From Pirellulales bacterium (GTDB lineage: Bacteria > Planctomycetota > Planctomycetia > Pirellulales > JAEUIK01), in the NCBI GenBank assembly GCA_019694435.1, contig JAIBBZ010000003.1, positions 62,001-126,000 of the forward strand: DNA of 64,000 bases, in the 5' to 3' direction. This document shows positions 5,290-19,756 of this stretch, one piece after another. Numbering within the stretch: position 1 is the first letter of the stretch; each line of letters opens with the position of its first letter. The translations under genes were made by a program, and so were the position numbers. The notes beneath the pieces were generated by a model that did no database searches, was not told where the DNA came from, and was given only the letters and a program-made list of their open reading frames with translations.

Positions 5290-5311
5290 GTACCCCCTAG
5301 GGGAGTCGAAC
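5290..5311. repeat. Left attachment site (attL): 22-bp copy of the tRNA-Glu 3' end
   Basis: The sequence begins GTACCCCCTAGGGG and is identical over 22 bases to 19683-19704. Identity stops exactly at 5312 (g against c). It corresponds to the T arm, acceptor 3' strand and discriminator of tRNA-Glu read on the minus strand. The rest of the tRNA is absent, so this is a site remnant and not a tRNA gene. Confidence 0.85.
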
Positions 5312-5390
5312 GAATTGACTTAAACGCTGATCGCGTCGAGGGTTGTCACAACAGCATAGTTAGCAGCGCTGCAGAATCCGGTGCAACTGC

Positions 5391-5520
5391 CATGTGGTTT
5401 AGGCTGGCACTCGAATTCCAGGACTACTTGGAGGACCTACGATCCATCATTGTCGCATGGCCCAAGCTGTCCTACTCGACTCGTGCCGAAATCTTGCAGA
5501 GGGTCCAACTGGCGGAATAG
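5391..5520 (+). CDS. Possible small protein (42 aa) beside attL
   Basis: ATG 5391 opens a short frame ending TAG 5520. It contains 'FQDYLEDLRSIIVAWPKL' and ends 'EILQRVQLAE'. From memory, short planctomycetal proteins with an 'AWP.LP.AIRA.IL' pattern occur often, commonly next to integrase genes, and this could be one or a worn copy of one. There is no convincing ribosome binding site, and the frame is open upstream across attL, so chance cannot be excluded. Confidence 0.25.
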
Positions 5521-6023
5521 GAGCACCTGGCTGATCGTCCAATGCACCGTCCGCATCGTCCGCATCGTCCGCAACCCTGATAGGGGCACGTCCGTCGTCG
5601 CTGCGCTTGGCGCTCATTCAAGGGGCGTCGCGGCGGTCGCGCCTGTGCCTTGGCTGCGGTTGCAACCGAGCCATGGACTTACCGAGGCCCCCTGGCGCCC
5701 CCAACGCCAGCCGCTGTGCACATATGGTTACCTTCGCTCGCAGTTTTTACGATTTTCAAGCGACCTATTGCGATCGAAAAAGTGGCACGTTAGATTCTTC
5801 GCAACGGTACGGTTCCTGGGCTGGGTGCCGCTAGTGAGGCAGACTTCAATTCACGGTTCGCAGCGCCGCTACCTGCGTCAGTCGGTAGCTGCCGCATCTT
5901 TGCCGTGACTCGCTCGATCGGTTGGACCAGTGCTTTTGCGCTGGATTCGACCGTTCCTTAGCCATGCTAGTTCCCGCCGGCAGTCTTTTGCCTCGGGCCA
6001 TCGTTGAACTTAGGGGAACCGAA
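5521..6023. other. Stretch without a supported gene
   Basis: No frame here has family features or a good ribosome binding site. A short triplication of 'CGTCCGCAT'-like units lies near 5547-5572. The last 100 bases probably hold the promoter of the PEP-CTERM gene. Confidence 0.4.
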
Positions 6024-8069
6024 ATGCCGCGTACCAGCGCCGCTGCAATCGTGATTGTCTGCCTGCTTGCTGACTCGATCGCCTTTGGGCAGCTTTCGTT
6101 CCAAGGGCTTGGGTTTCTTGACCAGCCAGGGCATTCCAAAGCGTTCGCCATTTCCGCTGATGGCACGACCGTTGTCGGCCAAAGCATGCAATATCCACCA
6201 CCATTGGATTACAGCTATGAGGAAGGATTTCGCTGGACTGAAGGCGGCGGGATGGTCGGGCTGGGAAATGAATTCGCCTATGTTCAAGGCGGGCAGGTTG
6301 ACCTATTCCTACATAATCCAGCGTTCAGCGTTTCCGGTGATGGTTCTGTAATTGTTGGCACTGGCGAGCGCAATTATGACGGCGAGTATATTGGTTATTA
6401 CTGGACTGAGAGTCGCGGTAATGTCGCGATATGGGGTGATATACCGCACATTGCCTTCGATGAGCCAGCGTTCCGGACCTATGGTGTTTCCGCAGATGGG
6501 CATTTGGCGGCTGGGGACTATTTTGATTATTCAGGAAGCGCCGATAGCGATGATGGCCCATTCATTGTTCCGCTAGACTCGTCAGGTCCTCCGTTTAATG
6601 TAGTCGTGCTCGAACAATCCAGGGCGATAGGCGGTACTGCGTACGGTGTTTCAGGGGATGGAACAGTGGTGTGTGGTTCATCCTTAGGGAGTCAGGCATT
6701 TCGATGGTCGTCCCCGGATGGCTTAACTGGCCTTGGTTACCTCACGGTGACACCGACTTCGTCTGAGGCTCGCGCGGTGTCCGGTGACGGGGCCACGATC
6801 GTAGGTTGGAGCAATTCGTCTTTCGGAACCCAAGCGTTCGTTTGGACCCAGCCGACAGGGATGGTTGGGGTCGCACCGACCGTTGGGCTACAGGCGGTCA
6901 TCGCCTATGCGACATCTCACGATGGATCGGTTGTAGTCGGTCAGGGCAAGAGAGGTGGGCAAGACACCGCCTTTTTGTTCAGCGAGTCCACGGGATTGCA
7001 GGCACTGGATGAGTATCTCAGTGCGAGGGGACTTGCTACTGAACTTGCAGGCTGGCGCTTGAGCGAGGCGCGTGGCGTGTCAGCCGATGGTCACCGTATT
7101 GCCGGCTGGGGAGTCGATCCTCAAGGACGGACTCAGGCCTGGGTGGCCACAGTTCCGGAGCCGTCCAGCGCCCTGTTGATGGTTATTGGGGGTGCCATGC
7201 TTCTCGGTCGGACAAACCGCAGACGCATGGCGATGGCAAGAATCGCGACCGTGCTCAGCACAGCGCTGCTGGTATTCCCACTGACCGCAAATGCAGACGT
7301 GAGCGTCAGCTTGAACTTTGACGCTCCAGTGGTCGGTACGATTGGCGACAACGCGGGCAATGGAACAGGATTCACACATCGGCTACCCGGAACGGGCGGG
7401 GCGATCCCCGCAAATGATCCCAACCTCAGCTTGACGGCCGTCCCGGGCAAGTTGCGAATGAACTCCACTCGGTCCGATTTCAATCAGCTAAATGGCTTTG
7501 GACGCAACCTCGGAAATTTGGAGGCAGCCGTAGTCTTTGTGCCAGGCGTGGGCACTCACGATTTTACGATGTCGGCCTTATTTGAAGATGTCGTCGTCAA
7601 TGGGCTGTCGGATCAGCTTACTTTGCTGGTCGGAGCAAATCAGGATGCCACGGTTCGATTGGGATTCCACGAACCTGACCAGGTGTTCGCTGTCGAGAAT
7701 TTCGGAAGTGGCGATGTTGGCGGTGCAGGTACGGGCTTGGGTGCTTTTGATCCAGGTGACAACATCCTCCTGACCGTGACTAGGGCAGCCGGGATTTGGA
7801 GCGTGTCTTGGACAAACCAAACCAACCCGGCCACCAGTGGATCGCTTTCGTCATTTACCGTTCCCTGGCTGGAGGCTTATGACGACCTGTATTTCGGCAT
7901 TCATGCCGCGAATGCTCGCGGCTTCGTACCCTTCACAGCGACCATCGACAACTTCACGTTGAATGTGGTACCAGAACCGTCCACCACTTTGCTCGCCATG
8001 ATCGGCGCCACCGCAGTGGGCGTCGTTGCCGCCCGCCGTCGTCGTACGGGGCTGTCGCTGACGAAGTAG
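6024..8069 (+). CDS. Tandem in-frame fusion of two PEP-CTERM secreted proteins (HAF-repeat beta-propeller + lectin-like domain)
   Basis: Start ATG 6024 has AGGGG upstream and is followed by a signal peptide (MPRTSAAAIVIVCLLADSIA). The first part (about residues 20-380) carries repeats of the HAF type: 'GHSKAFAISADGTTVVGQS', 'AYGVSGDGTVVCGSS', 'ARAVSGDGATIVGWS', each followed by an 'AFRW/AFVW..' strand, predicting a secreted beta-propeller. It ends in a full PEP-CTERM signal, VPEPSSALLMVIGGAMLLG plus RRR at about 377-402. Directly after this, without a stop, comes a second signal peptide (MAMARIATVLSTALLVF, ATG 7227 or 7233), a beta-rich domain, and a second PEP-CTERM (VPEPSTTLLAMIGATAVG plus RRRR). 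These were evidently two genes joined in frame. Whether the product is one chain, or the second half starts independently at 7227/7233, cannot be told; no strong ribosome site precedes 7227. Sorting would use an exosortase and EpsH-type system, not present here. Confidence 0.85.
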   Translation: MPRTSAAAIVIVCLLADSIAFGQLSFQGLGFLDQPGHSKAFAISADGTTVVGQSMQYPPPLDYSYEEGFRWTEGGGMVGLGNEFAYVQGGQVDLFLHNPAFSVSGDGSVIVGTGERNYDGEYIGYYWTESRGNVAIWGDIPHIAFDEPAFRTYGVSADGHLAAGDYFDYSGSADSDDGPFIVPLDSSGPPFNVVVLEQSRAIGGTAYGVSGDGTVVCGSSLGSQAFRWSSPDGLTGLGYLTVTPTSSEARAVSGDGATIVGWSNSSFGTQAFVWTQPTGMVGVAPTVGLQAVIAYATSHDGSVVVGQGKRGGQDTAFLFSESTGLQALDEYLSARGLATELAGWRLSEARGVSADGHRIAGWGVDPQGRTQAWVATVPEPSSALLMVIGGAMLLGRTNRRRMAMARIATVLSTALLVFPLTANADVSVSLNFDAPVVGTIGDNAGNGTGFTHRLPGTGGAIPANDPNLSLTAVPGKLRMNSTRSDFNQLNGFGRNLGNLEAAVVFVPGVGTHDFTMSALFEDVVVNGLSDQLTLLVGANQDATVRLGFHEPDQVFAVENFGSGDVGGAGTGLGAFDPGDNILLTVTRAAGIWSVSWTNQTNPATSGSLSSFTVPWLEAYDDLYFGIHAANARGFVPFTATIDNFTLNVVPEPSTTLLAMIGATAVGVVAARRRRTGLSLTK

Positions 8070-8076
8070 TTCGCCC

Positions 8077-8192
8077 GAAGATTCCCAAGGTGCCATCCTT
8101 GCGCGAGAGGGCACGTTGGCCATCTTCGTGGATTGAAGTGCGAAGATTCCCAAGGTGCCCCATCCTTGGAGTGAGCAATCTTGGCATCTTCG
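8077..8192. repeat. Two tandem hairpin repeats downstream of the PEP-CTERM gene
   Basis: Units at 8077-8128 and 8141-8192 both begin CGAAGATTCCCAAGGTGCC and both end ATCTTCG, so each can fold on itself (CGAAGAT/ATCTTCG outer stem; CCAA/TTGG and GTGCC/GGGCAC inner pairs in the first unit). They start 8 bases after the stop codon. They could act as a bidirectional terminator or mRNA 3'-end stabiliser, or belong to a dispersed repeat family. There is no T run, so a simple intrinsic terminator is unlikely. Confidence 0.6.
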
Positions 8193-8670
8193 GCGGCCAG
8201 CGAGCAAAGCTGGGTCGCCTGAGATGTCGCAACTGACAGCGCTCCGGGGGAACGAGGCGATGCGAGTATCCCATCCTCCCCATGCCGAGGTTTGTTACGC
8301 CGCCGTCGCAGAGCGACGATGGACTGGGTGTCCCGAACGGAGGGATTTGTCATTATCAAGGGTTGAAATGCGCAAACGCCCGTCTTGCCGCGAGATCAAA
8401 GCTGGTCGTCCTCAAAGTTGGCGCCTCGTTCCCTCGGTCGATGTGACCGAATCAGCTTGTTGGCAACCCTGTTCGTGGCCAGGACGGTTCGTTCTTCGCG
8501 CGCAAGGAGGACGACGGCTCCCTGCCGGATTTGACACAATCCCGGTCGCGTTCTCTGGCAAGATATTCCTCGCGCCGTATCTGTTGTGGGCAAGTACGAC
8601 GGCGAATGCCGACGCAAATGCTCCGTTACTTGGCAGCAAGCGAGCAAATTCCAGTTAATAGCGTACCACC
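8193..8670. other. Stretch without a supported gene
   Basis: Open frames on both strands cover this stretch, but none has recognisable motifs, hydrophobic segments or a credible ribosome binding site. If the palindrome that follows is an attC site, this could be a gene-less or decayed cassette. Confidence 0.4.
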
Positions 8671-8734
8671 GCACAACAATCCGTTGCAGACGCGACAGCC
8701 CTGACGGGCCGCGGCCTGAGCTCAATCGTTATTT
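8671..8734 (+). repeat. attC-like imperfect palindrome ahead of the HIT-HNH genes
   Basis: The segment opens with GCACAAC and closes with GTTATTT. Between them lie offset complementary arms (TTGCAG near the left, CTGAGCTCAA near the right) and a central AGCCC-TGAC-GGGC hairpin. Size (about 64 bases) and architecture resemble integron attC sites, but the outer core boxes are degenerate. The HIT gene's ribosome site starts within 10 bases after it, as in gene cassettes. This assignment is inferred from structure, not from a search. Confidence 0.4.
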
Positions 8735-8757
8735 GTGGAGAAAGGAGGCGAGTGACC

Positions 8758-9132
8758 GTGAACGGCTGTGTCTTCTGCAACCCTCATGGGGACAGGGTGT
8801 TCCTGGAGAACGAACTCGCCGTCGCATTGTGGGATGCGTTCCCTGTCACCGCGATGCACGCGCTGGTTGTCCCGCGCCGACACACCGAGGACTACTTTTC
8901 ACTTACCGCTGAGGAGTTGCTCGCCTGCAACGATTTGCTTCGGAAGGCACGTGAACTCGTCCAGGTAAGTGATCCCGCAGTAGAAGGATTCAACCTCGGC
9001 GCGAACATCGGCGATGCAGCAGGCCAAACCATCTTCCATTGCCACATCCACCTAATCCCCCGCCGTCGCGGTGACGTCGACAATCCCCGTGGCGGTGTTC
9101 GTCACCTGATCCCGGGCAAGGGAGCCTATTGA
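8758..9132 (+). CDS. HIT-family nucleotide hydrolase/transferase
   Basis: About 124 residues. An N-terminal CxxC (GCVFCNP) and the C-terminal histidine triad 'HCHIHLIPRR' mark a HIT (histidine triad) protein with the zinc-type N-terminus; 'LVVPRRHTEDYFSL' is the usual second conserved block. HIT enzymes cleave or transfer nucleoside phosphoramidates and dinucleoside polyphosphates through a His-AMP intermediate. AAAGGAGG at 8741-8748 gives 9-base spacing to GTG 8758; GTG 8752 is possible but too close. The stop codon overlaps the region where the HNH gene starts, so the two are translationally coupled. The position inside the element, bracketed by attC-like palindromes, suggests an accessory role, possibly handling a nucleotide signal or product together with the nuclease (inference). 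Confidence 0.88.
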   Translation: MNGCVFCNPHGDRVFLENELAVALWDAFPVTAMHALVVPRRHTEDYFSLTAEELLACNDLLRKARELVQVSDPAVEGFNLGANIGDAAGQTIFHCHIHLIPRRRGDVDNPRGGVRHLIPGKGAY

Positions 9133-9134
9133 CC

Positions 9135-10157
9135 GTGATGCACCCCTTCGTCGCGTTTCGACCGCGCCCCGAGGATTGCTGGCGCGGGATTATCCTGTTC
9201 GGCCGCAACGTTGCCACCTACAAGTTCGCACTCGGGCGGGCGCTGCTCGAACTACAGCCCCAAGCTGGCCAGCTTGTGACCTTGGAGGAGTTGGCGGCGC
9301 CGTTCTCGAAGTATCTGTGTTCCCACCTGCTGCTCGCAGAAAAACAGGGCACCTCGCGGGCAAGTCGCTTCTTAGACGCCTGCCGCAAGGCCAATGCGGG
9401 TGAGCTGACGCAGGAACAATTGGTCGACCAAGCTGTCCGGATCGGTTTTAACAATGTGATCCACGCGTTCCACGTTGTGGGCCGGAACGAAGTGCCGCAA
9501 CGGTTCTTCGTGGACGAGCGCGGCAGGGGTGGGGGAATCCGGATGACGCAGTCCTTCGCTGACCTGGTTGGCGGTGACCAGAATCCCAACCTACCGCTCG
9601 AAGCAGACGCGCGATGGCGGCTTGTCGAGACTGCGTGGGAACTTGGTGTGTCACCCGCGCTACTCACGGTGAACCGCGATCCGGCTACCGAATCGCTGTT
9701 CGTGGTCGACGCGGAAAGGCGCCGAAAGTCAATCACGGGGGCGCGCGACGCGCTCAGCGGTTACCAGAAGGGACACTGCTTCTACTGTTTCGACAGCTTT
9801 TCTCTTGCTGGAGCGACACCGCCGGACGTTGATCACTTCTTCCCACACTCTCTCAAGGCGGCAGGCATGGGTGGTCTCATCGACGGCGTGTGGAATCTCG
9901 TCCTAGCCTGCCGTCGCTGCAACCGAGGTGTGGCGGGGAAGTCGAACCTCATTCCTAGCATCAGGCTTCTTGAGAGGCTGAGCACGCGAAATGAGTTCCT
10001 GATTGCGAGCAATCACCCCCTTCGCGACACCCTTATGGCGCAGACCGGCGCGAGTGAGGTCGACCGCCGGGTGTTTCTGAGCACGTTCCACGTGCAGGCT
10101 CAGGCCGTCTTGATTCATGAATGGGAGCCCGTGGAGGTCGCGGAGGCGCTATTCTGA
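9135..10157 (+). CDS. HNH endonuclease-like protein coupled to the HIT gene
   Basis: About 340 residues. The C-terminal half has an HNH/zinc-ribbon core: 'CFYCFDS' (first CxxC), 'DVDHFFPHSL' (catalytic His block), 'GVWNLVLACRRCNRGVAGK' (Asn plus second CxxC, final His position replaced), then 'LIPS'. The N-terminal 200 residues are helical and match nothing I recognise; they may be the target-recognition or partner-binding part. Start candidates are TTG 9129, GTG 9135 and ATG 9138; AAGGGAG at 9118-9124 favours 9135. It overlaps or abuts the HIT stop at 9132, giving a two-gene unit. HNH proteins with this core act on DNA in restriction, anti-phage and homing systems. A defence role is likely from family and context but not shown. 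Confidence 0.82.
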   Translation: MMHPFVAFRPRPEDCWRGIILFGRNVATYKFALGRALLELQPQAGQLVTLEELAAPFSKYLCSHLLLAEKQGTSRASRFLDACRKANAGELTQEQLVDQAVRIGFNNVIHAFHVVGRNEVPQRFFVDERGRGGGIRMTQSFADLVGGDQNPNLPLEADARWRLVETAWELGVSPALLTVNRDPATESLFVVDAERRRKSITGARDALSGYQKGHCFYCFDSFSLAGATPPDVDHFFPHSLKAAGMGGLIDGVWNLVLACRRCNRGVAGKSNLIPSIRLLERLSTRNEFLIASNHPLRDTLMAQTGASEVDRRVFLSTFHVQAQAVLIHEWEPVEVAEALF

Positions 10158-10181
10158 GCGCCGGGACGCCATACGAGCATG

Positions 10182-10247
10182 GCTAACAACAGCATGCAGC
10201 GGACGGCACTGCGCTCCGCAAACGGTGCTGAGCGTCACTGCGTAAGG
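10182..10247 (+). repeat. attC-like palindrome between the HNH and EVE-nuclease genes
   Basis: It begins GGCTAAC AACAGCATGCAGC, continues with an arm that pairs imperfectly with the closing 'GTGCTGAGCGTCACTGC', and ends CGTAAGGT. Core boxes match RYYYAAC and GTTRRRY with one mismatch each. The length (66 bases), bulged arms and the GCAGC(G)GAC ... GCTGAGCGT layout are those of integron attC sites. It starts 24 bases after the HNH stop, where a cassette attC would lie. Its final 'TGCG.AAGGTGGGCG' recurs at the end of the 11782-11877 palindrome. Confidence 0.5.
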
Positions 10248-10388
10248 TGGGCGTGAACTGCAACCACGGAAGAGCACTGTACTCGGACGGTACGTCACTG
10301 GGCGGTTGGCCAGAGGCGAATTGGGTACGTGGGAATCGAAGCGATCCAACGTTACAATCCTGGACGAGGCGGGGCGTTGGCCAGATGC

Positions 10389-10522
10389 GATATAGGTCTA
10401 CCTATCGGCCACAAGGACGTTCGCACCACCCTGATCCGCACACACGCGTTGAACCGGGGCGCGGCGTTCGCAGTCCCGCTGACGGTCGTGCTCGACGAGG
10501 CTATGCGCAAAGGTTGATGTAG
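10389..10522 (+). pseudogene. Decayed C-terminus of an integron-type tyrosine integrase
   Basis: The frame at 10389 reads 'GHKDVRTTLIRTHALNRG', which matches the end of IntI/XerC-like integrases (GHxDVxTTMIYTHVLNRG). A one-base loss after the Asn-Arg then moves the homology to the next frame, 'GRGVRSPADG', the usual GVRSPxDxL tail, ending at TAG 10522. The catalytic Tyr position (IYTH) is Arg here (IRTH). Nothing upstream matches an integrase, so only about 40 codons survive. It cannot be active. Its position 140 bases after an attC-like palindrome supports an integron origin for this cargo segment. Confidence 0.6.
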
Positions 10523-10663
10523 ACACAACCCGCGGACACATTGTGACCTAAGAGGATCGGCCGCTAGTGCGATAGGCTGACAACCTTGCAGTCTATTGGC
10601 GGTACGCTGACCATCCTAAAACCAAGTTCGCGGACTAGCATGCACGCTCGGAGTATTCACGGC

Positions 10664-11764
10664 ATGAACTACTGGAGCGACCTGTTTACGCCTGAGACGT
10701 TCGAGGCGTTTGCTCGTTCAGATCGCACAATTTCGGGATTTCGTGAATCTCAGCGGTCTATGGCCGAAAAGGTTCGCGTCGGCGACAAGTTCGTTTGCTA
10801 CATGGTCCGCATGTCTCGTTGGATAGGCATCTTGGAAGTGATGGACGGGCCATTCACGGACAGCACGCCGATTTTCGTCCCTGACGACGATCCATTTGTT
10901 GTTCGATTCAAAGTTAGGCCTGCCGTATGGCTTTCTCTCGAAAAGACGATTCCAATCCACGAGTCGGAGGTGTACTCCCAGCTGTCGTTCACCCGCGACG
11001 TCAGGCCCGGCGGATATTGGCTTGGCCCGTTACGTCGCAGTCTAGTTAAGCTCAACCAGGATGACGGCGCATTCTTGGATTTGCTCCTGCAGCGCGTGCA
11101 GGCCGACGGTCGCACTTTCCCGGTGGACAACGAGCAGTATGACCGCGCGTTGAAGCGACGTATTCAACGGCCAGATCGTTCCGTTGTGGTTAGTGTGCCT
11201 GACGACAGGGTTGCGCCGACCGAAGAACCTGCGCAAGATTCAACAACTGACCGAGAATCGGTGCGCGTGCAAGCTGCCCTTTGTCGGATCGGTGAGGCGA
11301 TGGGTTTCAAGATTTGGCTCCCCAACGCTGACCGATCTCGCGTTGGCGAACATTGGTCGGCGCAGCCGGGAGTTCTGTTGGACCGCCTGCCACTGAACTA
11401 CGACGAAACGACCTTGGACACCGTCAAGCGAATCGACGTGCTTTGGCTGAAGGGGCGCGCCATCCGGAGAGCTTTCGAGGTCGAACATTCGACGGCAATC
11501 TACTCCGGCTTGCTGCGAATGGCCGATCTGTGTGCACTCCTTCCAAACATCAATGTGCCGCTCCATATTGTCGCACCCGAGTCGCGGCGCGAAAAGGTAT
11601 TCCAAGAGATCACCCGACCGGTATTCTCATTGCTAGAAAACTCGCCCCTTGCCGAGCGCTGCACGTATTTGTCTTACGGCAGCATTGAAGAGCTGGGGGA
11701 ACTTGATTACTTGTCCCACACCACCGATAGCGTGTTGGACGAGTTCAAAGAGTACGCTGAGTAG
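10664..11764 (+). CDS. EVE-like domain fused to a PD-(D/E)XK-type nuclease (modification-dependent restriction-like)
   Basis: About 366 residues. The N-terminal 150 residues read as an EVE/PUA-like fold: 'MNYWSDLFTPETFEAF', 'MAEKVRVGDKFVCYMV', 'WIGILEV', 'YWLGPLRRSL'. EVE domains bind modified bases. The C-terminal part carries a restriction-endonuclease-like core: 'VKRIDVLWL' (acidic strand), then 'AFEVEHSTAIYSGLLRMADL' (ExE-type catalytic strand and helix), as in PD-(D/E)XK nucleases. The middle (about 195-215) is an acidic linker. ATG 10664 is used because it coincides with the domain start; ATG 10640 is possible. The pairing predicts cutting of DNA carrying modified bases, or an RNA-directed variant (inference). 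It is flanked by attC-like palindromes on both sides. Confidence 0.75.
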   Translation: MNYWSDLFTPETFEAFARSDRTISGFRESQRSMAEKVRVGDKFVCYMVRMSRWIGILEVMDGPFTDSTPIFVPDDDPFVVRFKVRPAVWLSLEKTIPIHESEVYSQLSFTRDVRPGGYWLGPLRRSLVKLNQDDGAFLDLLLQRVQADGRTFPVDNEQYDRALKRRIQRPDRSVVVSVPDDRVAPTEEPAQDSTTDRESVRVQAALCRIGEAMGFKIWLPNADRSRVGEHWSAQPGVLLDRLPLNYDETTLDTVKRIDVLWLKGRAIRRAFEVEHSTAIYSGLLRMADLCALLPNINVPLHIVAPESRREKVFQEITRPVFSLLENSPLAERCTYLSYGSIEELGELDYLSHTTDSVLDEFKEYAE

Positions 11765-11781
11765 TCCTGGTGGGGTTGCCA

Positions 11782-11877
11782 GCGAACAAAGCACTGTGCT
11801 TGACGGGCAGGCGTAACGGTTACATCCCGTTCCTTGTAACCGGCCCGCAAGTGAGCGCAGTCGATCATTGCGCAAGG
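11782..11877 (+). repeat. Long attC-like palindrome after the EVE-nuclease gene
   Basis: It starts 18 bases after the stop codon. The centre is a perfect CGGTTACA (11817-11824) / TGTAACCG (11835-11842) hairpin with a 10-base loop; a second stem pairs GACGGGC with GCCCGC; outer arms run GCGAACAAAGCACTG ... CGCAGTC. The end 'TTGCGCAAGGTGGGCG' resembles the end of the 10182-10247 palindrome. The outer boxes fit attC less well than the 10-kb site, so it might instead be a strong fold acting as a terminator or repeat. Confidence 0.45.
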
Positions 11878-11982
11878 TGGGCGAGTCCTGGGCGCATTAC
11901 CGCTGCTAAAATCCTGCACGGCTGCGACACACCGAAGCAGCCAACCTTTGGCGGCGACTACGGTCGAGCGTTAGATGGGTGT

Positions 11983-14436
11983 TTACCAATCGATCTTGTC
12001 GAGGGTCTGCTCTCGGAGGAAAGCGTCCCGCATCGTCAAGCAGTGTGCTCGCAATTCGGCGAACGTCAAGTCGGCCGCCTGTTCGGCGAGTGCCGCCGCC
12101 TGTTGGAAGTCGCCGGCTTCCGCGTGGGCGGCGGCTAGGATCGCGACGGATTGCCAGTCCTGCTCGCCAGTGACTTCGAGCAGCTTTCGGGCGGCCACGA
12201 TGGCCTTCGTGCCATTGCGAAACCGCGCCTGCGGGCAAGCGGCCAGCAGCAACGCTTGCATTCGTAGCAACTCACGATGGTCGGCAGCTAACCGCAGACC
12301 AGTTTTGATGTCCCGTTCAGCCAGCGGGTACCGGCCTTGAGATTGGTAGACACGCGCCCGCAGCCAATAGATATCGGCGTCTCGCTCATTGACCTTCAGC
12401 GCCTGGCCGAAGTCCCTCATTCCGCCTCGCTCATCTCCCAGCATGACGCGTACTGCACCGCGGGCGGCAAGCGACGAAGTTAAGTCAACGCCGGCTAAAT
12501 CGACAGCGTGTTGCAAATCGAGAAGGGCTGCGTCCAGGTCACCGCGATGCCATTTAATAAGACCGCGGTTGACGTACGGCATTGGGTTGGCAGTGTCCAA
12601 GACCGCCCACTCGTTGAGGATCATTAGGACAGCATCAATCTCTTGATGCGTCAGCGCCAAGTAGTAGCCGACGGCAGTGAGCCATTCGTGCCGTAGCTGG
12701 TTACATTCGAGTAAGAGTTCGCGTTCCGCGGCGAGGGCTTCGGCGTGGCGGCGTAACAATTCAGCGATGCGTTGGGTGAGACTGGCATGTTCGGCCTGAA
12801 GGGCTTGTAATTGGAGCTGTAGGTTCCGCATCTCCGACTGCACTTGGTTCGCCTCGAAGTTTTCGTCTCGACGACGATGTTGGAGCAGCTGGGCGTCGGC
12901 TTCGCTTAGCGAGCTGTTGACGGCCAGCATTCTCCCTTCGACGCCCGTTAGGTTGGCCTTGGCGGCTTCGCCTTGGTTGCGGATGTCGTACACTTTCGAC
13001 TGCAAATTCTCGTACCGCTGCAACAGTGTGAGTCGCTGTTCGTAGATGCTTTGCAGCAACCGTCGCCGCTGCTCGATGCGAATGGCAATCTCCCCCTCTT
13101 CATCGCGGGCCGGGGGCGCCTGGGCCGGCACATTGGGCCGGGGACGATGGGGGAAGTGTTCGAGCGGGCTCGGTTGGGCGGGGGCCGATGCGAGTAGTTC
13201 AGCTAGGTGTTCCGAACTGATGGCAAAGTAGTAGCCCGTAGCATCCTTAGGGGCCCATGTGTTCACGCCAACGACTCGTCCACGGTAATTGACCAGCGGT
13301 CCGCCGCTGTTGCCGTGGTCAATGGTTGCGGTCGAGTGAATCCAGCGGGCATCGAGAGCGTAACCCGCGGCGGTGTAGATTTCGGCGGTTTCGAGAAGAC
13401 CAGATGCCGCAATTTCATGACCAGTTCGCACGCTGCTGACGACGCCATCCGAAACGGAGGCAATCAACCCCTGAGGACTCCCGAACGCGGCCACGCGCTC
13501 CCCCTTTTCAACGTCCGAGGCTAATTCCAACCGCGCAAGGTCTGGGGGGAGGTCGGGCACGTGTAGCACGGCCAGGTCATGCTCGGCGCTGGCGGCGACG
13601 AAACCGGTTGCTGAATAAACGGAGCCGCCCACTAGCAGGACCTTGATGTCCACGGCCTCATTAGCAACGTGAAAGTTGGTTGCGACCAACCCATGACTAC
13701 CCGTCAAAAAACCACTGCCGGTAGCTAGAGTTCCGTCCAAACGCCGTTTTTCGATCGTGACGACCGAAGGTTCCACGAGCTTCACCAACACGGGGAGTTC
13801 GAGGCCAGTGGCCGACTTTGTTTCGGCCGGATTCTCAGCAGCTGGAGGGTCGGAGCTTCCCGGAGGAGTGGGCGCGTCTTCTTCGGCCGAGGAAGCCTCT
13901 GCCGCGTTGTCGCCGATGGGAACCGTTGCCGGTTCGGTGGGGGATGAATCGGCCGCTTTCGCTGTGTCCGCGGCTTCTTGAGCTTTCAGCTGCCGGACTT
14001 TTTCCCGCAACTCGGCCAGCTCCCGCTTCTCCTTACCACTCGTGGCGGCGCGGAGTTGTTCATTTCCCCGACCAAACCACAACAACAGCGCCAAGGCGAC
14101 GGCCGCACAGCCGCAACCGGCCAAAACGATCACACGCCAGCCCACAGCAGTTTCTGGTTCCGTCGCCGCTTCAGAAATCTCCGGTGTTACCGGTTTGGCC
14201 GTGGGACGATCGACAGCGGTTGCCTCCTTCGGCTTGGCTGCCGCGGCCGCCGGCTGAGAAAAGAGTCCGCGAATCTCTCCAGCGGGAAGCCACTTGTTTG
14301 ATCCGGAGCGTCGAACCTGGTCGTGCGGGGATAGTTCCTTGCGACGAACCATCTCCTGGAGCTGCTTGGAGCCCATCGGACCCAGGACTTCCCCAAGGAC
14401 TTCGCAGTACCACTCGGTTCGCTTGTTTTCCGACAT
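11983..14436 (-). CDS. Membrane-anchored trypsin-like protease with N-terminal GYF-like and C-terminal TPR domains
   Basis: 817 residues in an unusual order. Residues 1-60 are GYF_2-like ('WYCEVLGEVLGPMGSKQLQEMV' and 'NKWLPAGEI'). One membrane helix follows (about 100-121, WRVIVLAGCGCAAVALALLLWF), then a Lys/Glu coiled coil and a low-complexity linker. About 210-405 is a trypsin-like serine protease with the full triad: His in 'VATNFHVAN', Asp in 'EHDLAVLHV', Ser in 'DHGNSGGPLV'. A long coiled coil (about 435-560) and TPR-like repeats ('PMPYVNRGLIKWHRGDLDAA', 'ADIYWLRARVYQSQGRYPLA') complete it. The GYF part should face the cytoplasm and the protease the other side if inserted N-in, but topology is not certain. 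It is the only intact minus-strand cargo gene of the element. Protease plus TPR proteins occur in anti-phage islands; a sensor-protease role is plausible but unproven. Confidence 0.8.
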   Translation of the reverse strand: MSENKRTEWYCEVLGEVLGPMGSKQLQEMVRRKELSPHDQVRRSGSNKWLPAGEIRGLFSQPAAAAAKPKEATAVDRPTAKPVTPEISEAATEPETAVGWRVIVLAGCGCAAVALALLLWFGRGNEQLRAATSGKEKRELAELREKVRQLKAQEAADTAKAADSSPTEPATVPIGDNAAEASSAEEDAPTPPGSSDPPAAENPAETKSATGLELPVLVKLVEPSVVTIEKRRLDGTLATGSGFLTGSHGLVATNFHVANEAVDIKVLLVGGSVYSATGFVAASAEHDLAVLHVPDLPPDLARLELASDVEKGERVAAFGSPQGLIASVSDGVVSSVRTGHEIAASGLLETAEIYTAAGYALDARWIHSTATIDHGNSGGPLVNYRGRVVGVNTWAPKDATGYYFAISSEHLAELLASAPAQPSPLEHFPHRPRPNVPAQAPPARDEEGEIAIRIEQRRRLLQSIYEQRLTLLQRYENLQSKVYDIRNQGEAAKANLTGVEGRMLAVNSSLSEADAQLLQHRRRDENFEANQVQSEMRNLQLQLQALQAEHASLTQRIAELLRRHAEALAAERELLLECNQLRHEWLTAVGYYLALTHQEIDAVLMILNEWAVLDTANPMPYVNRGLIKWHRGDLDAALLDLQHAVDLAGVDLTSSLAARGAVRVMLGDERGGMRDFGQALKVNERDADIYWLRARVYQSQGRYPLAERDIKTGLRLAADHRELLRMQALLLAACPQARFRNGTKAIVAARKLLEVTGEQDWQSVAILAAAHAEAGDFQQAAALAEQAADLTFAELRAHCLTMRDAFLREQTLDKIDW

Positions 14437-14572
14437 GGTGACTACCCCACAACAGTCCAGTTATTTTCCGTGTGTGGGCACCAATTTAGCCACGGCTGCG
14501 ACGCCGACCCAGAACGACAGTAGCGGGCCCCCAAGTGACCAGATTTTTGCTCGCCAAAGTCGCCATGTCCAA

Positions 14573-14833
14573 TTACGCGGTCAGTCTTTTACCGCCTGGG
14601 TGTTGCATCGTCGATACACTTGGGGCCGCGTCGAGGTTATTGCGGAGCTTGTCGGCGTCGAGCCACAGCGTGGCCTCGAACCCGAGGGCGGCGCCGTTGG
14701 ATTTGGCGTCGTTTGACTTGGCACCGTTGGAGCGGGAGCCGTTGCCCTTGGCTGCCGTTGGCGCTTTGGCGGTGCGGGGTGCGGCGTCGTCCTTCCTGGA
14801 CGGGCTGGACTTCGTCGTCGTGCGTTTGGCCAC
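14573..14833 (-). pseudogene. 5' stump of a type I restriction methyltransferase gene (hsdM)
   Basis: GTG 14833 opens 'AKRTTTKSSPSRK', a Lys/Ser/Asn-rich leader, then 'GAALGFEATLWLDADKLRNN' and 'LDAA'. The last block is the conserved opening of HsdM proteins (LGFExTLWxxADKLRxNMDA). Similarity stops near 14627; the frame then runs into unrelated sequence and ends at 14573. All SAM-binding and NPPF motifs are missing, so this is a deletion remnant. It implies the island once carried, or landed in, a type I restriction-modification locus. Confidence 0.65.
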
Positions 14834-15309
14834 CGTTCGATGCCCCCGGGTGCAGCAGGTATTAGGAATAAGGACTTCGGTCGGCGGTGGTCCCAACCAA
14901 GTGGCCAACCGATTGTCGTGCGGGCCTCGATTGTAAAACGCTTCGCGGCGTGGCTCTAGCGCTAGGCCTCGCGAGCCGGGTTGCCCGAGCTAGTGGAAGC
15001 GCCGATAATACTGTGTCCGCCGGCCAATAAGTGCCGGGGGCCTGCCGGTGCTCACTGAAAGCACGACTTGGCAGCGAACACCCGAACCGTGGGACACAAG
15101 ATCGCCAGACCGGTAGGACGGGCTAATCCATCGCTGTCGCATTCTGCGGTGCGACAGTAGCCAAATGCCCCAATAAACCCGGCAAAGTGCGGCGTCCCTG
15201 AAGCAAAACGGCGGGTGTTCCCCCTGTTGTTTGCCCCCCAGCCGGGGGCAGACCGTCGTCGTCGAGGCATCGTGGCCGTCACAGCGAACTTGAGCATGAT
15301 GGAGGACTT
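14834..15309. other. Stretch without a supported gene
   Basis: No frame here has family motifs. The final bases contain GGAGG serving the gene at 15310. This gap separates the minus-strand cargo from the plus-strand core module. Confidence 0.4.
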
Positions 15310-16215
15310 ATGCGCGCCGCTGAAGTACCGCTTTTTTCGAGAATCGAAGCGAGCTTTACGAGCATCGTCAACAGGGTTGAAGGGTACGCCGTTCAAGCGG
15401 AGTACGCCCTTGCAGTGCCTAAGGGAACCGAATTGCATAGCGCGGGCACGTACTTGCGTTATGAGCGCCGGCAGCGGGAATTGGTAGCACGGCACAAGGA
15501 GATGGGAAATCGGCTGCCGACCAATCTTATTGCCCTCGCTCAGCTTGCCGAGGAACAAGCCCAGCTTCTCGAAATACTCGCCAATTATGACGAGCGCCGT
15601 GCCCAGTATGCATGCCAAAATTCTCCAACCCCCGACTGCCGTGAGCTAGTCTCAGCCTATCGTGCTGCGGCACTCCATCTCGGACACGCACCGCCGGCTT
15701 GGCCGTTTGAGGTAACGTGTCATTCGACTCGGGGGTGGTTGCTCTATCTAGCGGCGGGTATTCCGGGTGCGAAGCCGCGTTTCTCCGCGAACGGACCAAG
15801 ACGCTTACCGATCAACCAGCCACCAAATCATGACCTAGTCATAACCCCTGCCGACCGTACGGCGCAAGCATTGCCGCAGAAAAAGCCCAAGCGGAGCACG
15901 GATCAAGGTGATGGCCAGGCGAAGCTGATTGCGGCTCTGAACGTACACCACCAGTACGCTAAAGACAGTTGCCTGAACCTCGAACCTATCGGCAACAACG
16001 AACTGGCCCGACGTGCGCAGGTTTCCCCATCGACGGCTTCCGCATTCTTTCGCGATAAATTCAAGGGGCATTCGAAATATCGACAACAGTGCCTTAACCG
16101 GACAATCCTTTTGCCGGCGTTGAAACTACTCAATCAAGACTACGCACCCCATCATTTGTTCGGGACCGAGCATCCCGGCGAGGTCGGACGCCACGGCGAC
16201 GATTCGGACGGCTGA
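15310..16215 (+). CDS. Element-borne HTH protein of unknown role (first gene of the core module)
   Basis: 301 residues with GGAGG 5-6 bases before ATG 15310. The N-terminal 120 residues are predicted helical ('YERRQRELVARHKEMGNRL', 'LAQLAEEQAQLLEILANY'). The middle is basic and Pro-rich and probably disordered. The C-terminus reads as a helix-turn-helix: 'NNELARRAQVSPSTASAFFR', followed by a basic segment and 'FGTEHPGE'. I do not recognise the family by name. Proteins of this size and layout recur in planctomycetal elements upstream of an excisionase-like gene, ATPase and integrase, so it is probably a regulator or accessory DNA-binding factor of excision or replication (inference from context). 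Confidence 0.7.
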   Translation: MRAAEVPLFSRIEASFTSIVNRVEGYAVQAEYALAVPKGTELHSAGTYLRYERRQRELVARHKEMGNRLPTNLIALAQLAEEQAQLLEILANYDERRAQYACQNSPTPDCRELVSAYRAAALHLGHAPPAWPFEVTCHSTRGWLLYLAAGIPGAKPRFSANGPRRLPINQPPNHDLVITPADRTAQALPQKKPKRSTDQGDGQAKLIAALNVHHQYAKDSCLNLEPIGNNELARRAQVSPSTASAFFRDKFKGHSKYRQQCLNRTILLPALKLLNQDYAPHHLFGTEHPGEVGRHGDDSDG

Positions 16216-16234
16216 TTGGTGTCCACTGCCCGTA

Positions 16235-16267
16235 GTGTTCGATCGTTCGGCGTATTTTGCCGAACAC
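16235..16267. promoter_or_regulatory. Candidate operator: nested inverted repeats upstream of the excisionase-like gene
   Basis: GTGTTCG (16235-16241) pairs with CGAACAC (16261-16267). Inside it GTTCGGC (16245-16251) pairs with GCCGAAC (16259-16265) around a 7-base loop. The two pairings compete, since both use the right arm. The site is about 150 bases upstream of the HTH gene at 16416, in the only gap of the core module, so it could be an operator or a terminator for the gene upstream. Confidence 0.35.
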
Positions 16268-16415
16268 CTGCGAAGTTTTTCCCTTTGAAAAACCCGTGGA
16301 TTTCGGGCATTTTCTTGCGGTTCACCACCTGCTCGGCACTCCAACCGCCGAACTCTGCGCCAACGGGTATGCGGGCTGCACTTCGCAGCCGGCGAACCAG
16401 TGGAGAAGGTGAACC

Positions 16416-16670
16416 ATGGCAACGCAACGCGTTGACCGCCTAGCCTCTCGTGCGCGGGAGGTGGCGACGGTGTCGGCACAGGACAGGGGAGGCCAGCTCT
16501 TGACGCTGGCCGAAGCAGGGCAGTTTTTGCGGTTGTCGCATAACACGCTGCGGAAACAGATTCGACTCGGTCGCTTATCCGCGGTGGTAATTGGCCGCCG
16601 CAAGTTTGTCGCCCCCAGCGAGCTAGATCGCTTCATCGCACACAACAGCACAAACGGAGGTGCAGCATGA
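16416..16670 (+). CDS. Excisionase-like helix-turn-helix protein
   Basis: 84 residues. GGAGAAGGTG precedes ATG 16416. Residues 27-75 are an HTH_17/excisionase fold: 'LLTLAEAGQFLRLSHNTLRK', 'QIRLGRLSAVVIGRRKFVAP', 'SELDRFIA'. Such proteins bend DNA at att sites and steer the tyrosine integrase towards excision, and often also regulate the element's promoter. The stop overlaps the ATPase start as ATGA, so the two are translationally coupled. The family is also used for other DNA-binding regulators; the location beside an integrase favours an Xis role. Confidence 0.8.
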   Translation: MATQRVDRLASRAREVATVSAQDRGGQLLTLAEAGQFLRLSHNTLRKQIRLGRLSAVVIGRRKFVAPSELDRFIAHNSTNGGAA

Positions 16671-18313
16671 GTACAGGGAGCGATCGCCAACGATCTGGGC
16701 AATTACAGCGGCTACTGGACCTCGCACGAGAATGGGAGCTGTTTCACAGCCCCGATCAAAGCCCGTTTGCAACGATTCGGTACGAAAAGCGAGCCTTGAC
16801 TTTACCGCTGACCGTAGACGAAGCCGGCCCTGAGCTTACGAGGGCATACCTAGATGAGCATGATGAGGCGCCGGCGAGCGGGATTGTCACCGAAGCGGTG
16901 CAGCACTTAGCGACTCTGGCGCGGTTTCGCGGCGAGCAGCATGAGGTGCAGGTGCGGGTTGCTCAGCAAGGATCGGCGCATTACCTCGACCTGGGGAGCG
17001 ATGACGGCCGCTGCATTGAAATCACCACTGAAGGTTGGCGTGTCATCGACGAGCCACCGGTCAAGTTCCTGCGACCTGCCGGCATGCTCGCGCTGCCCGA
17101 GCCCCAGCATGGAGGTGATTTAGAAGAACTGGCGATGGTCTTGAATATCCAGTCCGAAGACTGGGTCTTGTTGGCAGCCATGCTCGTTGCCATGGTCTTA
17201 GGCATCTCGCCCTTCCCCATCTTGATCCTGCTGGGCGAACAAGGCTCGGCCAAGAGCACGGCGACACGGCTGTTACACACGCTGATCGATCCTCATCAAC
17301 TCCCGCTGCGCACGTTACCCCGGAACGAGCAAGACCTGGCTATCGCGGCGGCGGGGTCCTACCTGCTCTGCTTCGATAATGTGTCAATCCTGTCGGATGC
17401 GATGTCGGACGCCCTTGCCCGACTGGTTACTGGAATTGGATTCGCCACCCGTCAGCTCTACACCGATCGTCGGGAAGTGCAAATCCCGGTTCGACGTCCC
17501 ATCTTGATGAACGGGATTGATGAATTTGCCGGGCGTCCTGACCTGCTTGATCGTGCGCTGGTGCTCGAATTGTCTCCGATCCCGCCAGATCGACGCCGCA
17601 CGGAAGCTGAGGTGATCGAACAGTTCAACCGCAGCCATGGACGGATTTTAGGTGCGATCCTCGATTTGGCGGCTCGGGCCGTGGGGATCATGCCGAGCTT
17701 GCATCTCGAAACGTTACCGAGGATGGCAGACTTCGCCCGACTGGGGGAGGCTGTCGCGATTGCCCGGGAATTCCCTGAAGGTGCGTTTCGTGAGGCCCTG
17801 GAGGCGAATCGTGATCGCGGAGATCAGGCAACCATTGAAAGGTCGGCGATCTTTGAGCCGCTGATGGCGTTCGCGGATCGCACTCGTGAATTCCGAGGTA
17901 CCGCGAGAGAACTGTTAAGCGAGTTGCGGGAATTGGCTGTTGCGAGCGGATTGAGGCTGGCAGCCAACTTTCCCCAGACTCCCAATCGCCTGTCTCAACA
18001 GTTGCGGCGATTGCTGCCCCTGCTACGCACCCGGGGGATCGAAATCCGCATGGACTTCCGAACGCCCGACAGAGCCAGGCAGCGATTGATTGAAATCCGC
18101 GTTCCCGTTCTACGGGAGAGAGGGAGGAGAACCGCCGTTGCACCCACTCTGCCGGCACCACCGCCTGCGGACGATGCGGACGATGCGGACGATGAGTTGC
18201 GCTTTGTGCCAGACGGCGAACCGCTAAATCCGGATGCAGAGCCAAGCGGCGAAGAGTTCTTCGGCGACATCGAGTTTGATGTCGATGCTTTGGACGAGAC
18301 CAGCCCGTCTTGA
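16667..18313 (+). CDS. P-loop ATPase of the element (replication/helicase-like)
   Basis: 548 residues starting with an ATGA overlap with the excisionase-like gene. The N-terminal 170 residues are a separate domain. A Walker A 'LLGEQGSAKSTATRLLHT' lies at about 188-205, a Walker B-like 'SYLLCFDNVSIL' at about 235-245, and a sensor-like 'PILMNGIDEFAGRPDLLDRA' at about 278-297. This arrangement is seen in superfamily 3 or AAA-type helicases of phages and integrative elements. The C-terminus is acidic with a short Asp-Ala repeat. It probably drives replication or unwinding of the excised circle, but no primase motif is visible and the assignment to a specific helicase family is uncertain. Confidence 0.7.
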   Translation: MSTGSDRQRSGQLQRLLDLAREWELFHSPDQSPFATIRYEKRALTLPLTVDEAGPELTRAYLDEHDEAPASGIVTEAVQHLATLARFRGEQHEVQVRVAQQGSAHYLDLGSDDGRCIEITTEGWRVIDEPPVKFLRPAGMLALPEPQHGGDLEELAMVLNIQSEDWVLLAAMLVAMVLGISPFPILILLGEQGSAKSTATRLLHTLIDPHQLPLRTLPRNEQDLAIAAAGSYLLCFDNVSILSDAMSDALARLVTGIGFATRQLYTDRREVQIPVRRPILMNGIDEFAGRPDLLDRALVLELSPIPPDRRRTEAEVIEQFNRSHGRILGAILDLAARAVGIMPSLHLETLPRMADFARLGEAVAIAREFPEGAFREALEANRDRGDQATIERSAIFEPLMAFADRTREFRGTARELLSELRELAVASGLRLAANFPQTPNRLSQQLRRLLPLLRTRGIEIRMDFRTPDRARQRLIEIRVPVLRERGRRTAVAPTLPAPPPADDADDADDELRFVPDGEPLNPDAEPSGEEFFGDIEFDVDALDETSPS

Positions 18314-18410
18314 ATGAGCTACTGGGCCGAGGCAGCCGCACGGATGCGGCTTGCCTGCTGCCTAGAATTCGTCTCGTGGTCAAGCAACCTCGTATCGAGG
18401 AGAATCTCAA

Positions 18411-19721
18411 GTGGCAAGTATCGCCCGCGAGCCCAATGGGCGTCGCACCATTCAGTTTATTGGGGCTGATCAGCGACGGCGTTCGATCCGCCTGGGCAAG
18501 GTCTCTCACAAGGTCGCGGAGACCGTCAAGATTCATGTCGAGCGGTTGGCCTCCGCTACCTTGATGGGCCATGTCGTTGATGACGATACGGCTCGCTGGC
18601 TTGACCGGCTGGATCAGGACTTTTACGAGAAGCTGGCGAAGGTCGGCCTCGTTCCTCGACGTGAGCGAGCAACGCTAGGGGCCTTCCTGGATGCCTACAT
18701 TGCGCAGCGGACCGACGCCAAGCCACGCACCATTATCAATCTCAAGCAGGCACGAAACTACCTGATTAAGCGATTCGGTGAGGACTACCCACTTCGCGCG
18801 GTTACTCCGGGGGACGCTGATGCCTTTCGTCAATGGATGTTTGGAATCGTGGGGGAGAATACGGCTCGCCGACACTGTGGGCGTGCCAAGCAATTCTTTC
18901 GTGCAGCCCAGCGCAAGCGGCTGATCGGCGAGAATCCGTTTGCCGATATGGCAGGCTGTGGTGTCAGGGCGAACAAGGACCGTGAGTACTTTTTGTCCCT
19001 GGAGGATGCATACAAGGTTTTGGCAGCCTGCCCTGATCCGGAATGGCAACTCCTTTTTGCGCTTGCCCGATTTGGAGGACTGCGGATTCCCTCGGAGGCC
19101 GTGGAATTACGCTGGCAGGACATTGACTGGGAGAATCGCAAAGTACTCGTCAGAAGCCCCAAGACTGAACACCACGATGGCAAGGGCTCCCGGACCATTC
19201 CTTTGTTCCCGGAGCTAGTGCCCTATCTGGAAGCAGTCCGCAGGCAGGCCCAGGAGGGTGAAGAATTCGTCCTACCAAATCGGCGAAATCAAAATGCCAA
19301 CTTACGGACTCGGCTGACCAAGATCATCCGTCGGGCTGGCCTAAAACCCTGGCCAAAGCTCTGGCAGAATCTGAGATCGACCCGGCAAACGGAACTGGCC
19401 GACCAACGCTATCCTGGCCATGTGGTGTGTGCCTTTATGGGCAATTCACAGGCGGTAGCCCAGAAGCACTATCTCCAGGTTACGGACGATCACTTCCATC
19501 GGGCTGCCAGCGAACCGACCGCACCCGTAGACGATCAAGGCGGTGCAAAAGCGGTGCAGATTCCGGTGCACCAGGGCGCCCCCTCCAGGGTCAAAGACGA
19601 TCAAACGATCAGCACTGCCCACAAAAATACGGCGGTTTTGACAACCTTTGAACCGTCGTGGAGCCCAGAGAATGGGCAGACAGTACCCCCTAGGGGAGTC
19701 GAACCCCTGTTTTCGGGCTGA
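18411..19721 (+). CDS. Tyrosine recombinase (integrase) of the element
   Basis: Start GTG 18411, with GAGGAG 8 bases upstream. An N-terminal Arm/SAM-like part ('REPNGRRTIQFIG', core-binding domain about 85-170) is followed by the catalytic domain (about 195-385). Catalytic Arg lies in 'LARFGGLRIPSEAVEL', Lys in 'SPKTEHHDGKGS', the second Arg in 'LWQNLRSTRQTEL' and the Tyr nucleophile in 'AQKHYLQV'. Both usual His positions are Asn (QNLR and MGNS), which I recall as normal for this planctomycetal family. The last codons, from about 19684, lie inside the tRNA-Glu gene on the opposite strand, so the C-terminus is supplied by the attachment site. It should catalyse recombination between the 22-bp repeats. 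Confidence 0.9.
   Translation: MASIAREPNGRRTIQFIGADQRRRSIRLGKVSHKVAETVKIHVERLASATLMGHVVDDDTARWLDRLDQDFYEKLAKVGLVPRRERATLGAFLDAYIAQRTDAKPRTIINLKQARNYLIKRFGEDYPLRAVTPGDADAFRQWMFGIVGENTARRHCGRAKQFFRAAQRKRLIGENPFADMAGCGVRANKDREYFLSLEDAYKVLAACPDPEWQLLFALARFGGLRIPSEAVELRWQDIDWENRKVLVRSPKTEHHDGKGSRTIPLFPELVPYLEAVRRQAQEGEEFVLPNRRNQNANLRTRLTKIIRRAGLKPWPKLWQNLRSTRQTELADQRYPGHVVCAFMGNSQAVAQKHYLQVTDDHFHRAASEPTAPVDDQGGAKAVQIPVHQGAPSRVKDDQTISTAHKNTAVLTTFEPSWSPENGQTVPPRGVEPLFSG
19683..19704. repeat. Right attachment site (attR) within tRNA-Glu
   Basis: Identical over 22 bases to 5290-5311. It covers the acceptor 3' strand, T arm and one base past the discriminator of the intact tRNA-Glu gene. The integrase reading frame passes through it. 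Confidence 0.85.
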
Positions 19722-19756
19722 GAACCCGACGTCCTGGGCCACTAGACGAAGGGGGC
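19684..19756 (-). tRNA. tRNA-Glu (anticodon CTC)
   Basis: On the minus strand a 73-base cloverleaf begins GCCCCCT and ends AGGGGGT plus discriminator A; the G1-U72 pair is seen in other bacterial tRNA-Glu genes. The D arm is GTC...GAC. The anticodon stem TCGGG/CCCGA encloses loop TTCTCAG, giving CTC. The T arm is AGGGG-TTCGACT-CCCCT. No CCA is encoded. Its 3' end is the insertion target of the element. Confidence 0.92.

Follow-up and report, generated by a model that had tools for sequence, protein, structure and literature searches.

A tRNA-Glu island of a Pirellulales bacterium whose attachment site apparently splits the integrase gene, and similar detached integrase tails in related islands

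An integrative island targeted to a tRNA gene was confirmed at positions 5290-19704 of the window, that is, of the whole stretch of 64,000 nucleotides of Pirellulales DNA that was analysed. Both ends carry a 22-bp exact repeat, GTACCCCCTAGGGGAGTCGAAC, with copies at 5290-5311 and 19683-19704 (plus strand) that are separated by 14,393 bp; a search of the 6.13-Mb assembly (90 contigs) with the 19-bp core of this repeat, allowing up to one mismatch, returned two matches only, one at each island end, and a reversed-pattern control returned none. ARAGORN placed an intact tRNA-Glu(CTC) at 19683-19756 on the minus strand, and the repeat is therefore the 3′ end of this host target gene, with the copy at 5290-5311 as its displaced fragment. 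The locus thus has the features expected of a tRNA island: the tRNA is intact at one end, the other end holds the corresponding 3′ fragment in like orientation, and a tyrosine integrase (PF00589, E 6.7e-13) lies in between. GC content is 0.55-0.62 within the island versus ∼0.63-0.68 in the flanks as far as ∼25 kb, and drops again at 28.5-30 kb, beyond the island. A first-pass annotation had proposed a 14.4-kb island in tRNA-Glu(CTC) with both att sites, which the repeat and its unique core bear out; the span that it gave, 5290-19756, is correct on the left, but the right end falls at 19682 or 19704, depending on the repeat copy counted, and 19705-19756 is host tRNA sequence outside the element. 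In three of five family-level relatives, a homologue (50-53% identity) of the gene to the right of the island, which encodes a kinase, adjoins tRNA-Glu(CTC), and the downstream stretch of these three showed no relative of the window integrase (at most 4 kb was covered, and in two of them 2.7 and 3.3 kb). The left-hand island flank was not found in the five relatives, and the exact empty site was thus not seen among them.

The tRNA end of the island carries genes of an excision/replication type, all on the plus strand. The first (15310-16215) encodes a protein with a conserved C-terminal part of ∼110 aa and relatives in 29 of 396 genomes, some of which lie near two sibling integrases of the same genome. 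An excisionase-like HTH_17 protein (16416-16670; PF12728, E 3.6e-9; PHROG 66, E 5.6e-6) and a helicase-like ATPase (16667-18313) follow; the latter has a Walker-A-like motif, identified by eye, and no Pfam match of its own above the cut-off. Relatives of the helicase-like gene occur in 25 of 396 genomes and precede an integrase of the window family in 10 of 32 loci examined, with L034 and L049 being the same island; some have N-terminal zinc-ribbon or Toprim primase-type domains, which the window protein lacks. An AlphaFold model of the helicase-like protein from four sequences was poor (mean pLDDT 57.5), searches of PDB sequences gave nothing usable for this protein or the integrase, and a scan of viral sequences with the helicase-like protein revealed no free circle. 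This helicase-like module may provide for replication after excision. Gene matches uphold the earlier placement of such a module at the tRNA end, with accessory genes elsewhere.

The accessory genes comprise a HAF-repeat/PEP-CTERM protein ORF with two PEP-CTERM motifs (5922-8069, plus strand; PF07589, TIGR02913), a HIT-family protein (8752-9132, plus; PF01230, E 2.2e-18), an HNH endonuclease-like protein (9129-10157, plus; PHROG 338, E 2.3e-16, with Pfam HNH below cut-off), a protein with an EVE-like domain and a restriction-endonuclease-like C-terminal half (10586-11764, plus; PADLOC REase_II, E 1.2e-16), and a protein combining GYF_2, HtrA-like trypsin, and TPR domains (11983-14436, minus; PF14237, PF13365, TPR models). 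The HIT and HNH genes (8752-10157) share four bases and may form a two-gene unit; the EVE-like domain (NCBIfam PRK00809, E 1.2e-6, under its cut-off, with Pfam EVE also below cut-off) and its endonuclease-like partner possibly constitute a modification-dependent nuclease. Genes for HAF-repeat/PEP-CTERM proteins recur in or beside such islands (here, at 7307-8308 of locus L049, and in L093), and in L093 the integrase frame appears to continue into such a gene. The earlier description called the cargo rich in nuclease-, protease-, and nucleotide-type genes; its "defence or satellite-type" character was not established: in PADLOC, the EVE-like, HNH, HIT, and HtrA-like proteins each matched as single genes only, short of the complete known system expected of a defence island, and the nine likely genes gave no capsid, terminase, or packaging match (PHROGs, Pfam). 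PICI/P4-like phage satellites carry capsid-remodelling, terminase, or packaging genes. The claimed lack of conjugation genes stood, as no conjugation or phage structural family matched the nine likely genes (Pfam, PHROGs, NCBIfam) or eight further ORFs (Pfam only), and no relaxase or conjugation gene of the kind that defines an ICE or mobilizable element was found in the island.

The main feature of the locus had been overlooked: the att site cuts through the integrase gene, whose detached 3′ end is found immediately inward of the left repeat. The integrase had been described as abutting the tRNA, and the two are indeed adjacent; the ORF (18411-19721, plus strand), however, overlaps the tRNA, crossing att without a stop and ending in tRNA-antisense codons, 'VPPRGVEPLFSG', to give a chromosomal form of 436 aa. 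Joining 19682 to 5290 in silico continues the integrase frame for 69 residues past the repeat (5312-5517) to a stop at 5518-5520; it takes the joined att to bring this detached 3′ end (5312-5520, plus strand) into the integrase frame. At the in-silico junction, the att core accordingly lies inside the int reading frame, as in Myxococcus phage Mx8. The catalytic Tyr354 precedes att, which falls at residue 425, and both enzyme forms predicted from this arrangement therefore retain the catalytic core. A leave-one-out tail profile scored the window tail at 24.4 bits in frame 0 versus −1.3 in each other frame; the tail was also matched by a 20-tail profile, which includes the window row. A structure model from one sequence predicted a helical hairpin in the tail, with block pLDDT of 78-92 over residues 31-70.

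Relatives of the window integrase were found in 179 of 396 genomes of the order (E ≤ 1e-60), and among 13 relatives in named genomes, 10 came from MAGs named Planctomycetota, Phycisphaerae, Phycisphaerales, or Pirellula, and the remaining three from genomes labelled Obscuribacter, Deltaproteobacteria, and Bacilli. Loci were taken from selected places favouring long contigs and from sites found earlier, mostly in genomes split into many contigs; the integrase was present in 80. Once a near-duplicate (L034) and loci short of upstream sequence had been set aside, 75 were examined for repeats. Of these, 28 yielded an upstream repeat of 14 bp or more, and in the other 47, C5, L081, and L082 among them, none was found within the stretch examined. 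After removal of L071, in which the integrase frame stops before att, and L096, in which a 14-bp match lies within the integrase ORF and not at the tRNA end, and after addition of C5 from a separate repeat search, 27 islands with both ends were available, all 5.7-32.6 kb long except C5 (2.6 kb). In 26 of these, the integrase frame stays open for at least 21 codons beyond the repeat, L046 having no tail; 23 tails are 53-73 aa long, and 21 contain a tail motif with a tryptophan (W), which is missing in C18 and L069 (weak score), L068 and L088 (no match), L090 (21 aa), and L046. When leave-one-out profiles were offered all three frames, the predicted frame scored at least 20 bits in 20 of 24 islands tested, the exceptions being C18 (7.3 bits), L069 (10.9 bits), and L068 and L088 (no match); off frames reached at most 3.0 bits, except for one L035 frame at 20.0 bits, where there is perhaps a second tail. 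A Mantel test of tail against core distances in 22 islands gave r −0.02 (p 0.54), so that the test gives no support for tail and core being inherited together; the absent correlation may reflect exchange of tails or saturated distances.

Further loci outside this set include a 41-kb island (L082) with an in-frame W tail, extra to the 27 and uncounted, and one with a 25-bp repeat and a truncated integrase (L081). For five of the 27 islands, the integrase has no called tRNA gene next to it; four of these sites look, by eye, like tRNA fragments and one like a tmRNA end; in L112, the att near the integrase end resembles, by eye, a tmRNA 3′ end and not a tRNA. Among 54 integrases that reach a recognised T-loop, the three reading frames through it are used by 41, 9, and 4 (seven of the nine at tRNA-Ser); three further integrases stop short of the T-loop, and the motif was unrecognised in six. 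A proposal that relatives with longer frames (500-600 aa) retain the whole tail on the chromosome was rejected, as the tail profile matched ORFs in none of 20 such loci (best 4.0 bits, E 0.056), where the extra length consists of linker, tRNA antisense, and flank.

The tail profile was built from 20 aligned tails, all chosen for having the W motif; the W is invariant in all 20, which is partly selection because only motif-bearing tails were aligned. It matched 193 of 392 genomes of the order (E ≤ 1e-3) and, across the phylum, 30 of 149 drawn genomes (E ≤ 1e-4), many of these matches being partial. Among the ∼150 matches listed, frames are short, mostly 60-200 aa, and three are at least 400 aa. 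Two long frames were rejected as candidates for an integrase with its tail, one because it is a PEP-CTERM gene on the opposite side of att (L130) and the other because no integrase was visible by eye (L146). No Pfam model matched more than one of the 20 tails, and the profile found only weak matches among PDB sequences (E 0.06 or worse). In one match from another lineage in the phylum search (L163, 1268-2711), a tail-like 'RAWPELPEDVRARI' ending is carried, as judged by eye, by a primase-like protein and not by an integrase; this ending may be a shared docking motif. Separately, one single-contig genome (G106) has four displaced tails (L149-L152), with hairpins similar to the tail of L173, a family-2 island from the same genus; the stretches fetched around these four contain no family-1 integrase.

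The genome of the window itself contains four more matches to the window integrase. Three are at tRNA-Lys, tRNA-Val, and tRNA-Ala: for the tRNA-Lys element, a far repeat of 20 bp was located at a distance of 9.7 kb; for the tRNA-Ala remnant, the repeat measures 39-44 bp, its distance is 2.6 kb, and a homologous tail ending is read across its junction; and no far repeat was found for the tRNA-Val integrase, whose locus is near a contig end. The remaining match, on contig C35, points towards a tRNA-Met fragment that belongs to a neighbouring island as its far end; this region (C35:43770-54140; L166, L025) is a tandem, in which a second-family island at tRNA-Met is followed by the island of this family-1 integrase.

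The 10.3-kb tRNA-Met island of C35 encodes an integrase of a second family that barely aligns with the window integrase (BLAST E 0.29), although a family profile detects distant similarity (27 bits, E 1.7e-10). This integrase too has a frame that runs into the tRNA; when followed over a 46-bp repeat (one mismatch), the frame leads on into a tail whose hairpin is similar (13.2 bits, E 0.014). The second family matches 41 of 146 genomes (E ≤ 1e-40); among the matches listed, 20 places were fetched, seven of them with about 18-20 kb, and the ORF overlaps the tRNA in all 20. A far repeat was within reach in two of the 20, both with an in-frame W tail, which together with C35 makes three of three resolved islands. 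A nearest-tail look at the sequences is suggestive of second-family tails that group by host lineage.

Two loci display integrase and tail in one frame. In L110 (1845-3513, reverse strand), a degraded integrase lies directly before the far att copy, and near position 8168 of L156, a locus that forms the distal end of the 41-kb island L082, an integrase C-terminal end does so; both read in one frame into the tail, the arrangement that the model of a joined gene predicts, and both probably derive from tandem islands. Neither a complete integrase-plus-tail gene nor an excised circle was found in plasmids, phages, or viral contigs: with the joined L095 protein as query, phages gave no match and plasmids two weak partial matches (26-27% identity) without an intact integrase-plus-tail, and with the window integrase core as query, viral contigs gave a single 61-residue fragment.

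Such an anatomy, in which att lies within the integrase gene and integration detaches the tail, is highly likely to be the correct reading of the window island, and it is very likely that the split gene also acts as a switch between a free and an integrated form of the enzyme. The similar detached tails of many related islands suggest two such forms. In the excised circle, the gene would encode a 500-aa integrase consisting of the core, a linker, the att-encoded 'VPPRGVE', and a tail ending in the W-containing helical hairpin. Recombination with the tRNA-Glu 3′ end would keep the core with its catalytic tyrosine next to the tRNA and carry the last 69 codons 14.4 kb off to the other end, and the integrated gene would finish in tRNA-antisense codons; the free-state integrase would thus have the tail, and the integrated-state integrase would be without it. 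Chances are about even that the tail is an arm for docking or assembly that serves attP × attB integration while the island DNA is free. Its loss would then lower re-integration, and excision would be left to the tailless integrase together with the excisionase-like protein.

A fairly unlikely alternative, drawn by analogy with the repressor of mycobacteriophage BPs, is that the tail targets the free-state integrase for degradation, with a stable enzyme resulting from integration. As in the window island, attP of BPs lies in a reading frame, and integration removes a C-terminus to leave a shorter protein with an altered property; in the available part of that account (PMC4557955), however, the switched protein is a repressor whose lost part holds a degradation tag, whereas here it is an integrase. 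The conserved part of the island tails is the internal W-hairpin, whereas their extreme C-termini are not conserved (20-tail alignment, by eye), which favours docking or assembly over a degradation tag.

By a second analogy, with the 'suicidal' SSV-type integrases of archaea, integration would disable the enzyme and lock the island in place. The likeness is that attP lies inside int in both and that integration separates the gene in two, according to the portion available of a review of archaeal integrases (PMC8371274). In SSV-type integrases, however, the catalytic Int(C) is severed from Int(N), whereas the window integrase loses a post-catalytic tail alone, its catalytic domain with Tyr354 lying wholly upstream of att; the same portion (PMC8371274) names PF16795 for the SSV type, whereas the match here is PF00589. 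An excisionase-like gene is also kept in the island, and we regard self-inactivation as distinctly unlikely.

The tail could also be a small gene in its own right, located at the far end and no part of the integrase. Its conservation in the short frames noted above among the matches listed would be in keeping with this, as would some in-frame start codon in or before att for 18 of 23 tails. The other five, however, have no in-frame ATG, GTG, or TTG upstream and no ATG in the first 35 codons (within the tail, only ATG was checked), L068 among them lacking the W motif. Of 11 chosen tail matches read at base level, moreover, 10 start at the T-loop antisense of the tRNA in att (L154 does not do so exactly), and in 26 of 27 islands tail and integrase share one frame across att, which leaves a separate gene very unlikely. 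An ordinary tRNA island, whose integrase reads into the tRNA by accident and whose far-end frame is due to chance or neutral, would accord with the motif's absence from six of 27 islands and with the Mantel result, but is very improbable given the in-frame homologous tails (20 of 24 at 20 bits or more, with low off frames save one of L035), the like motif in a second integrase family, and the two natural in-frame joins of L110 and L156.

An att-split integrase gene with a detachable tail, the reading preferred here, has partial counterparts elsewhere. In the int/sib retroregulation of phage lambda, integration removes the int 3′ region and thereby changes int expression; that system acts on mRNA, whereas the switch of the window island would act on the protein. 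The target of phage Mx8 is tRNA-Asp. According to the title of a 1996 paper by Tojo et al., cited by the Islander paper, integration alters the C-terminal region of IntP. Mx8 resembles the window island in having attP inside int, and its intact Int (AF396866) contains 'STGLEPVLLG', resembling the antisense T-loop reading of the islands, followed by a long C-terminal part. Its similarity to the island integrases, however, is marginal (E 0.001 in the best pairwise BLAST; 4.3 bits against the family profile), its C-terminal part does not match the tail profile (1.1 bits), and it is one phage, in contrast to the many islands and two integrase families here. The Islander paper, in the part available, states that Mx8 and SSV integrases extend across attP; its islands share with the window an integrase beside the tRNA, an intact tRNA at one end, and a 3′ fragment at the other, but that part describes no conserved detachable integrase tail (PMC4383910). 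The available portion of the archaeal review, from 2021, considers self-disrupting integrases exclusively archaeal and does not mention Mx8 (PMC8371274). The system was not found in Planctomycetota in the literature searched, mostly open papers available in part (PMC8371274, PMC4557955, PMC8138268, PMC4383910). A precedent therefore exists in Mx8, and the shared tail and its frequency look new.

More speculatively, Planctomycetota may have a widespread, perhaps phylum-wide, integration-state switch, in which at least two distantly related integrase families share an exchangeable type of tail that is attached only in the circle and can be reassorted between islands at att, so that the integrase would report its own state and the tail would dock on a host or replication factor; we hold this broader scheme as tentative and rather doubtful. 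Mx8 was already an exception to the archaeal-only rule, and the arrangement is now found to be common in one order of a bacterial phylum. In practical terms, the arrangement supplies a sequence signature by which such islands can be recognised at either end. It also implies that the C-termini annotated for many planctomycete integrases probably consist of tRNA-antisense codons. The system also offers a ready test of how an integrase obtains its direction. If the tail is of one piece with the enzyme only when the island is excised, its conservation would itself be evidence for continued cycling of these islands, in a group of bacteria that has been little studied for mobile elements.
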